Assembly: GCA_963205385.1 (NCBI GenBank)
Contig: CAUJKE010000206.1
Location: forward strand, 43,659-107,658
Reading direction: 5' to 3'
From: Planctomycetota bacterium
GTDB lineage: Bacteria; Planctomycetota; Planctomycetia; Pirellulales; Pirellulaceae
DNA: 64,000 nucleotides
This document shows, in pieces, positions 26,315 to 29,085 of this stretch. The notes beneath the pieces are model-generated. The model made no database searches. It was given only the letters and a program-made list of their open reading frames with translations, and was not told where the DNA came from. Positions within the stretch are counted from its first letter, which is position 1. Every line of letters starts with the position of its first letter. The translations under genes were made by a program, and so were the position numbers.

Positions 26315-27727
26315 TTAGCCGACAGGCTGCGTCGCCGTCTCGTGGGGAAGTTTGGACGTCACCCAGGCTTTGAAGCCTCCGACCATGTCCAAGACATCGT
26401 CGCGCCCCGCCTGCGCGAGCAGGCTCGCGCCGATGGCCGAGCGGTAGCCCCCTTCGCAATGCACGACGACGGGACGATTCGCGTCCACCTCGGCGGTGCG
26501 GTCGCGCAGTTGAATGAGCGGAATGTTCACGCTGTTGGCGATGTGCCCCGCGGCCCATTCCTTTTCACTGCGCACGTCGAGAACCGTCGGCGCAGCGTCG
26601 CTCGCGAGCTGTTCCGCGAGCGCCACGGCGGTGACCCGCTCGATCTTGGCCACCAGTTCAGGCCGATCGCGCAAAGCGTTCATCCCGTCGCCCAAATAGC
26701 CGGCCACATTGTCAAAGCCGATCCGGCCCAATCGCATGACGGCCTCGGCCTCTTGACCGGATTCGGCAATGATGACAATGGGATGCTCATGGTCGAGCAC
26801 GGTTCCGCACCATTGAGCATACTTGCCGCGGATGCCGACGTTGATCGAGCCAACTAAATGGGCGCCTTCGAAGTCAATCGCGTCGCGCACGTCCAATAAT
26901 TGCGCGCCTTGGCTCTGCAGCCGCAATACCTCCTCGACGGACAACGCCTGCAGGGACTGAGCCATGGAGGCTTCCAAGCTCAGACGTTCTTGGCGATTGA
27001 GGATGGCGTCGTAAACAAAATAATCCGGAGCTTCAGGCTGCTCCTCGGTCACAAGCTGTTTGAAGTCCGCGCGGCTCATCGGCTGCAAGGCGTAGTTGAA
27101 CTTCTTTTGCTCGCCGATGGTGGAGACGGTTTCGCTACTGAGATGCTTGCCGCACAACGACCCCGCGCCGTGGGCGGGGTAGACGAGTGTTTCGTCCGGC
27201 AACTTCACCAGCTTGTTCGTTAGCGAATCGTACAACATGTCCGCCAGGTCATCTGCCGTTACGCCGATCGAGGCCAGCAGGTCCGGACGGCCAACATCGC
27301 CGATGAACAACGTATCGCCGGTGAGCACCGCCAGCGGAGTCTCGGCGCTCTGCCCCAGGTCGTACACCAGAATCGAGATGCTCTCCGGCGTATGCCCAGG
27401 CGTTTCCAGGATTTCGAGGCGCACGTCGCCGAACTCGATCCGGTCTCCTTCAGCGAGTAGATGCGCCTTGAACTCCGGTTCAGCGCGACGGCCGAGGTAG
27501 ATTGTCGCCCCACATTGATCGCGCAGTTCGATGTGTCCGGCGAGGAAGTCCGCGTGAAAGTGCGTCAGAAAGACATGCTTGATCTGGCAACCGGCCGCTT
27601 GCGCGTCGGCGACGTATTGTTCGATATCGCGCTGCGGATCGACAACCGCCGCCGTTTTCGTTTTCTCGTCCGTAATCAAGTACGAAGCGTGCGACAGACA
27701 CGCCAGATAGTATTGTTTGAGTTGCAT
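26315..27727 (-). CDS. CstB-like protein: MBL-fold persulfide dioxygenase domain + degenerate rhodanese + active rhodanese
   Basis: THFHADFLAGH in an MBL fold; first rhodanese has IIAESGQEA (no Cys); second has VVVHCEGGYRSA (active-site Cys). Confidence 0.88.
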   Translation of the reverse strand: MQLKQYYLACLSHASYLITDEKTKTAAVVDPQRDIEQYVADAQAAGCQIKHVFLTHFHADFLAGHIELRDQCGATIYLGRRAEPEFKAHLLAEGDRIEFGDVRLEILETPGHTPESISILVYDLGQSAETPLAVLTGDTLFIGDVGRPDLLASIGVTADDLADMLYDSLTNKLVKLPDETLVYPAHGAGSLCGKHLSSETVSTIGEQKKFNYALQPMSRADFKQLVTEEQPEAPDYFVYDAILNRQERLSLEASMAQSLQALSVEEVLRLQSQGAQLLDVRDAIDFEGAHLVGSINVGIRGKYAQWCGTVLDHEHPIVIIAESGQEAEAVMRLGRIGFDNVAGYLGDGMNALRDRPELVAKIERVTAVALAEQLASDAAPTVLDVRSEKEWAAGHIANSVNIPLIQLRDRTAEVDANRPVVVHCEGGYRSAIGASLLAQAGRDDVLDMVGGFKAWVTSKLPHETATQPVG

Positions 27728-27787: not shown

Positions 27788-28357
27788 TTAGCCGACGCGA
27801 CACGCGGCGCCGGTTGAACCAGAACCGCCGGAGACCTGATTCCACGGCATGCGCGCTAACAGCATCGCCATCCCGCAAGTATCCGTAATCCCGGCGAACA
27901 TCAGACCGGCGCCGACAAACGCGGAGAGCGCGATCCAATAAGGATGAACAAAAAAGCCCAACGCGGCCCCAATCACAACGAGGGCGCCGGCCGCGATGCG
28001 CACTTGTCGCTCGAGCGACATCGCCTTCTTGCCGCGCGTGATTGGCAGGCCGGTGGTTTCGCAGGCGAGCGTTCCGCCGTCCACGTTCACAACATTTTCA
28101 AAACCGGCGGCCACGAACCTTTCGCAGGCTTGCTGGGCCCGGTTTCCGGAGCGACAGATCACATAGAGCGGTCGCTCGGCATCGCCGGTGCGCTCGGCAA
28201 ACACGGCTTGTGGATCGAGACGGTCGAGCGGCACGTTGCGCGCGAACTCGACATGCGCCTCGCGGAATTCGACCGGCGTGCGAACGTCGATCAACTCGAT
28301 CGGCTCGCCGGATTTGTGAAGATGGTTGAAATCCGCAGCGGAAATCTTACTGGCCAT
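27788..28357 (-). CDS. Rhodanese with C-terminal DUF2892-type membrane domain (YgaP-like)
   Basis: 'IELIDVRTPVEFREAHV', 'LYVICRSGNRAQQA', then a hydrophobic hairpin 'GALVVIGAALGFFVHPYWIALSAFVGAGLMFAGITDTCGMAMLLARMPWN'. Confidence 0.93.
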   Translation of the reverse strand: MASKISAADFNHLHKSGEPIELIDVRTPVEFREAHVEFARNVPLDRLDPQAVFAERTGDAERPLYVICRSGNRAQQACERFVAAGFENVVNVDGGTLACETTGLPITRGKKAMSLERQVRIAAGALVVIGAALGFFVHPYWIALSAFVGAGLMFAGITDTCGMAMLLARMPWNQVSGGSGSTGAACRVG

Positions 28358-28388
28358 GATCTTGCTCCTCGTTTACGTTAAATGTTGT

Positions 28389-28410
28389 TATGTCGTAACC
28401 TGACGATATA
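28389..28410. promoter_or_regulatory. Predicted ArsR-family operator upstream of the rhodanese gene
   Basis: TATGTCG-N8-CGATATA inverted repeat between the arsR stop and the rhodanese start. Confidence 0.6.
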
Positions 28411-28424
28411 TTTTCCCAAAAAAA

Positions 28425-28745
28425 CTACTTCTCGGCGTTCCCGCCAAAACGGGACTCAATGCACGACATGATGCTGGCGAGATGCGGTTCAGCGACGGAA
28501 TAATACACGAAGCGTCCATCCTTCCCCGACGTCAGGAATCCGCACCGCTGCATCAACCGCAGATGCTCCGAAGCCATGTGACTGGGAATCTCGCAAGCTT
28601 CCGCCAACTCGCCGACGGAATACCGGCCTCCCAAAAGCATCTGCACCATCCGCAGACGATGCGGGTGGGCAAGCGTTCGCAAGCACTCCGCCGCCTGGCC
28701 GAGCGCCTCGAGACTGGTCAATTGAGCTTTCACGTTCCGAACCAT
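28425..28745 (-). CDS. ArsR/SmtB-family transcriptional regulator
   Basis: 'LRTLAHPHRLRMVQMLLGGRYSVGELAEACEIPSHMASEHLRLMQRCGFLTSGKDGRFVYYSV' winged HTH. Confidence 0.95.
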   Translation of the reverse strand: MVRNVKAQLTSLEALGQAAECLRTLAHPHRLRMVQMLLGGRYSVGELAEACEIPSHMASEHLRLMQRCGFLTSGKDGRFVYYSVAEPHLASIMSCIESRFGGNAEK

Positions 28746-28767
28746 AAGCGCCTCCTCATACTGCTAT

Positions 28768-28789
28768 TATATCGACAGATAGCGACATG
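28768..28789. promoter_or_regulatory. Predicted ArsR-family operator upstream of the arsR gene
   Basis: TATATCG-N8-CGACATG; its reverse complement CATGTCG-N8-CGATATA matches the 28389-28410 site at 13 of 14 arm positions with the same spacer length. Confidence 0.6.
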
Positions 28790-28920
28790 TCAACCAGCCG
28801 GATTTCCAGAAACCGTTCCCGGCGCTTAAACGCCGGCCTAATACCCACGTGACGGCGGGAAAGGACCGTGAACGGCCCTGAATGCCGGTGTTTTTGACCG
28901 CGCACGCTACCGCGCGCGAC

Positions 28921-29085
28921 CCCCACCAATAACGGCGATTATTAGCCCCTCCGCGCAATCGCGGCCACCACCACCTCCCCTCCGCGACCCCATCGGGCTC
29001 GTCCCGATGGTGAGCGAGTTCCCCCAGCTACGTCTGGCGCAACAGCCCCCCACCAATGACGGCGATTATTAGCCCCGCCGCGCAA
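28921..29085. repeat. Pair of 38-bp direct repeats flanking a hairpin element
   Basis: 28921-28958 CCCCACCAATAACGGCGATTATTAGCCCCTCCGCGCAA and 29048-29085 CCCCACCAATGACGGCGATTATTAGCCCCGCCGCGCAA (36/38 identical). Confidence 0.8.
28990..29010. repeat. Dispersed hairpin element, copy 2
   Basis: GACCCCATCGGG-ctcgt-CCCGATGGTGA; same 8-bp stem and 5-nt loop as copy 1, with a compensatory pair change. Confidence 0.5.

Follow-up and report, generated by a model that had tools for sequence, protein, structure and literature searches.

Two inverted repeats in a planctomycete sulfur operon are very probably the operators of the adjacent ArsR-family autorepressor, which would govern a sulfide/persulfide detoxification regulon through promoter occlusion and be released by way of its cysteine thiols. 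Many planctomycetes share such a palindromic switch in the promoters of sulfide/persulfide detoxification genes; its reader is evidently a small ArsR-family repressor with a conserved cysteine set of its own in place of the pair found in known sulfide sensors. The repeats lie within a 64,000-nucleotide stretch of a Planctomycetota genome, analysed as a whole and referred to here as the window.

The operon and its two inverted repeats

Gene order on the minus strand is arsR, YgaP-like rhodanese, MBL-rhodanese, with the following features:

28766..28793, minus strand: arsR promoter, -35 TTGACA, 16-nt spacer, -10 TATAAT, overlapping operator 1 (12/12 matches)
28768..28789, minus strand: predicted operator 1, CATGTCGCTATCTGTCGATATA, within the arsR promoter (motif and orthologue conservation)
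28425..28745, minus strand: ArsR-family regulator, 106 aa (Pfam HTH_20/HTH_5, NCBIfam HTH_metalloreg, AlphaFold model)
28430..28449, minus strand: terminator-like hairpin with T tract at the arsR end (-10.9 kcal/mol)
28389..28410, unstranded: predicted operator 2, arsR/rhodanese intercistronic (motif; 48/109 orthologous gaps at up to 1 mismatch)
27788..28357, minus strand: rhodanese with YgaP-like transmembrane domain, 189 aa (Pfam Rhodanese and YgaP-like_TM)
26315..27727, minus strand: MBL fold with two rhodanese domains, 470 aa, persulfide-dioxygenase/CstB-like (Pfam, PDB matches)

Both repeats described in an earlier sequence-only reading are present, 28389-28410 reading TATGTCGTAACCTGACGATATA with 0 mismatches to TATRTCG-N8-CGAYATA and 28768-28789 reading TATATCGACAGATAGCGACATG with 1 mismatch; because the genes are read on the minus strand with arsR first, operator 2 falls in the gap between arsR and the rhodanese gene. 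Taken alone, this loose pattern is non-significant in the window (5 occurrences at up to 3 mismatches versus 3.06 expected), and the evidence for the strength of the predicted motif is drawn from the comparison of orthologues.

The product of 26315-27727 shows the CstB-type layout, an MBL domain with two rhodanese domains after it (Pfam, PDB), and it is likely to act as a persulfide dioxygenase/CstB-like enzyme, since its nearest PDB matches are the MBL-rhodanese proteins 3tp9 (E=2e-89) and 3r2u (E=1.5e-64), with human ETHE1 also matched (E=1.3e-14). At the active-site cysteine position the first rhodanese domain reads IIAES and the second VVHCE, and therefore the second domain alone looks catalytic from its sequence. 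The putative terminator at the arsR end is plausible in the window and weakly conserved at best, and an Rfam search of the region matched no RNA family. Two near-identical intergenic stretches containing CACCAAT.ACGGCGATTATTAGCCCC lie upstream of the operon, at 28920-28950 and 29045-29080.

Promoter architecture and conservation of the operator

The arsR promoter (28793-28766) is a perfect sigma-70 promoter, TTGACA-16-TATAAT, and operator 1 sits between and partly on its hexamers, sharing its outer bases with both the -35 and the -10 element; this embedding of the operator in the promoter was absent from the earlier reading. Of 99 related genomes, 63 contain the regulator, and another 80 loci come from public records, which carry planctomycete titles in nearly every case. 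Comparison of 110 loci, some of them near-duplicates (93 distinct upstream 34-mers), yields a refined motif, TRTCG-nnAnnTnn-CGAYA, and a single logo upstream of arsR, TTGACATRTCGnnAnnTnnCGATATAWT, in the same promoter frame as in the window. The spacer is constrained rather than free, with an A and a T fixed inside it, a feature the earlier reading had missed.

Upstream of arsR the core TRTCGnnAnnTnnCGAYA occurs without mismatch at 81/110 loci and with 1 mismatch at a further 20/110, against about 0.2 expected from shuffled sequences, so that at least 101 of the 110 orthologous genes carry it at up to 1 mismatch. The gap between arsR and the next gene, which encodes a YgaP-like protein in 101 of 127 orthologous loci, holds the core at the same tolerance in 48/109 loci, versus 0.2 expected. 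Conservation upstream of orthologues, one of the checks put forward for the site, is thus borne out, as are the others that need no bench work, and the proposal of a self-regulated switch is supported. A conserved inverted repeat inside the promoter of the regulator's own gene is also the pattern associated with autoregulation in the ArsR/SmtB family, here recognised at the level of sequence.

Further palindromes accompany some of these loci. Three (L011, L043, L046) have an operator-like palindrome (TATATCGACTCATCGCGATATT or close to it) about 150 nt upstream of arsR, in L043 in addition to the usual promoter site. Among distant arsR relatives, L265, L266 and L270 retain TTGACATATC..GATAT upstream with altered inner palindrome bases, e.g. 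TATCTAAATGTTTAGATA, suggesting that operator and regulator drift together; shifted operators are found in some, e.g. TTGACATATCTAAATGTTTAGATAT in L265.

The presence of the site tracks that of the regulator: ATRTCGnnAnnTnnCGATAT occurs in 45 of the 63 genomes with the regulator versus 1 of the 36 without (Fisher p = 4e-12, the 99 genomes being related and the counts therefore not fully independent), while the reversed control sequence occurs in 3 genomes. These data bear on the possibility that the repeats are mere conserved promoter sequence, their outer bases serving as -35 and -10 hexamers and not as parts of an operator. The coincidence of those bases with TTGACA and TATAAT at operator 1 is what such an explanation would predict; it is nevertheless highly improbable, given that the TCG..A..T..CGA dyad lies within the promoter spacer, where ordinary promoters would not conserve it, that the arsR-rhodanese gap contains the dyad again, there beside weaker hexamers, and that genomes without the regulator hardly ever contain the string.

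A regulon of sulfide and persulfide genes

In the whole 6.03 Mb host genome the refined core has 4 exact matches, 2 in the window and 2 on another contig (C10). The C10 pair, 124 bp apart, stands in front of a TauE/SafE exporter gene heading an operon that continues with a small unknown protein, a methyltransferase and a CoA-disulfide-reductase/rhodanese fusion, and its first site lies in a TTGACA...TATAAT frame like that of the arsR promoter. As the motif was refined on arsR sites, the C10 pair constitutes independent confirmation. The genome-wide scan suggested for the motif thus confines its refined form to two sulfur operons in the host, and the regulon would appear to reach unlinked sulfur operons, a point absent from the earlier reading. 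Exact matches to ATGTCG-N8-CGATAT on two other contigs (C66, C406) lie within coding genes and lack the inner T, and were set aside as background. A second MBL-rhodanese persulfide-dioxygenase-like gene (G000:C392:15463-16836) stands without an exact operator copy.

A scan of 397 genomes of the order gave 94 occurrences of the promoter-operator string TTGACATRTCGnnAnnTnnCGATATA, against none of its reversed control. Among the 75 occurrences that were classified, 71 precede arsR (54) or sulfide/persulfide genes (17, with L234 and L245 assigned by hand and the others tallied by script), the latter comprising genes for YgaP-like rhodanese, TauE, PDO, DUF1641-SQR, SQR, CoADR and rhodanese-MBL. The remainder comprises 1 string before an RND-type membrane-fusion protein, 2 at contig ends and 1 without assignment. 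The few RND-type targets have no clear sulfur link and count against the sulfur-regulon model. At two loci from two genomes (L152 near 3001, L231 near 301) the operator precedes RND-type membrane-fusion protein genes; such genes also occur further down a rhodanese operon in L159 and L240. Taken with the genomic context and the position of the operator, this census suggests that the regulator controls sulfide/persulfide genes.

Fold and cysteines of the regulator

The regulator scores above the Pfam cut-offs for the ArsR/SmtB winged-helix fold (HTH_5, 28.7 bits, cut-off 22; HTH_20, 34.1 bits, cut-off 27), and its AlphaFold model is a winged-helix ArsR fold (mean pLDDT 90) with helices at 12-25, 28-39, 44-51, 55-67 and 88-100, matching SmtB, YgaV and BigR at TM about 0.7-0.8; the best PDB matches include M. 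smegmatis SmtB. The translation has the cysteines given by the sequence-only reading, with C21 and C95 lying in helices 1 and 5, C51 closing helix 3 and C68 immediately following helix 4. C21, C51 and C95 are invariant in 110/110 orthologues and C68 is kept in 109/110, figures to be read with the caveat that the peptides in the pattern search for the 80 public loci included Cys and so favoured its retention, whereas the searches of the 99 genomes did not.

The persulfide sensors YgaV, SqrR and BigR depend on two cysteines, one in helix 2 and one close to the C-terminus in helix 5, C31 and C98 in YgaV (PMC9774250, PMC10509353). The position of YgaV Cys31 is occupied here by an invariant Gln35 and that of Cys98 is absent; membership of the SqrR/BigR/YgaV group was therefore rejected, and the doubt already voiced about these cysteines proves well founded, a different Cys set being conserved. 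The NCBIfam BigR model gives the regulator 46.5 bits versus a cut-off of 155, a cut-off that is narrow, since the E. coli control genome likewise has no match above it.

Twenty looser relatives across the phylum (39-66% identity) almost always keep C95 and mostly C21, and often lose C51 and C68. Some of the distant-relative operons with lost cysteines still carry CoADR and PDO, so sulfur control cannot depend on all four; C95 and C21, being retained most, are the leading candidates for a core sensing site.

It is unlikely that the protein is instead an ArsR/SmtB metal or metalloid sensor in which C21, C51, C68 and C95 serve as soft-metal ligands, the sulfur genes being its metal-stress response. 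Its richness in cysteine, a generic NCBIfam match to 'HTH_metalloreg' and the presence of SmtB, NmtR and Rv0081 among its nearest solved relatives would fit such a role, and the offset of the PDB match, taken without gaps, presumably places C68 at a CmtR ligand position. The models for CmtR and other metal sensors nevertheless fall far below their cut-offs on this protein, no metal exporter, metallothionein or arsenate reductase was recognised in the window operon, and, apart from one RND-type, one unassigned and two cut-off cases, every one of the 75 targets classified is arsR or a sulfur gene.

Four conserved cysteines without the SqrR-type pair could also belong to a general redox or peroxide switch, or an Fe-S- or zinc-bound one, as opposed to a sulfane-sulfur sensor, and the ArsR protein RexT does sense peroxide (PMC8960804); the targets, however, are sulfide/persulfide enzymes of the same kind as those of the S. 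aureus CstR set (PMC5480029), and a general switch of that sort is judged improbable.

Proposed mechanism and the second operator

Since operator 1 is embedded in a sigma-70 promoter, repression by occlusion of RNA polymerase is the natural model for the ArsR autorepressor. Direct binding of an ArsR dimer to TRTCG-nnAnnTnn-CGAYA between the -35 and -10 elements would block RNA polymerase at arsR-ygaP-PDO and, in trans, at the TauE/SafE-CoA-disulfide-reductase operon elsewhere in the genome, the regulator thus repressing rather than activating its targets. As reactive sulfur species build up, thiol chemistry on C21 and C95, and probably also on C51 and C68, would release ArsR and allow the detoxification enzymes to be made. 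Because the gene content of the regulon concerns sulfide/persulfide, the inducer may be a persulfide or related sulfur species.

Operator 2 would serve in this scheme as an extra roadblock or titration site. Its flanks hold a weaker promoter-like pair on the plus strand (TTGTTA-16-TATATT, 28385-28412) facing back into arsR, and 33/43 distinct orthologous gap sites have flanks with a likeness to the arsR promoter that runs the opposite way. Since this likeness is weaker than at true upstream sites, a regulated antisense promoter counts as a lead rather than a result; a roadblock or secondary binding site is the more cautious interpretation. DNA looping between the operators was rejected, the spacing having no helical phasing across 54 loci. 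A bolder scenario, offered tentatively as one that may well prove wrong, is that a Planctomycetota branch of ArsR evolved its own sulfane-sulfur sensor from C21 (helix 1) and C95 (helix 5) with C51/C68 as auxiliaries, and with it a phylum-wide regulon having a promoter-fused operator, operator 2 driving a regulated antisense promoter that faces arsR.

Comparison with known systems

A search of open-licence papers for this regulator in planctomycetes found no paper. Among characterised systems, the cluster 4 persulfide sensors of the ArsR family (SqrR, BigR, YgaV, HlyU, SoxR-sHdrR) resemble it in being small ArsR-fold repressors adjoining rhodanese, persulfide dioxygenase and TauE-type genes, and the pairing of arsR with its YgaP-like neighbour is that of E. 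coli ygaV-ygaP. The SqrR operator, an inverted repeat of ATTC-N8-GAAT (PMC9774250), shares the 8-nt gap; the planctomycete system differs from the SqrR/BigR/YgaV group in lacking the helix 2/5 Cys pair, in placing its cysteines elsewhere and in using a TRTCG half-site with the inner A..T. The regulator would appear to work as in SqrR/BigR control while falling outside that group by its cysteines. SmtB, NmtR and Rv0081, the best solved matches, share the fold, but no known metal-site motif was recovered here and their targets are different.

In S. aureus, the persulfide repressor CstR governs tauE-cstA-cstB-sqr and is 'CsoR-like', with a structure that has no relation to that of ArsR-type sensors (PMC5480029). 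Its regulon parallels the planctomycete one in TauE, a CstB-like dioxygenase, rhodaneses and SQR, to which a CoA-disulfide-reductase/rhodanese is added here, whereas the regulator in planctomycetes is of ArsR type. For sulfide/persulfide control in Planctomycetota there is now a specific operator, together with a regulon, that can be put to the test. An ArsR subfamily apparently filling the role of SqrR/BigR without their defining Cys pair bears on how often thiol-based sulfur sensing arose within one fold.
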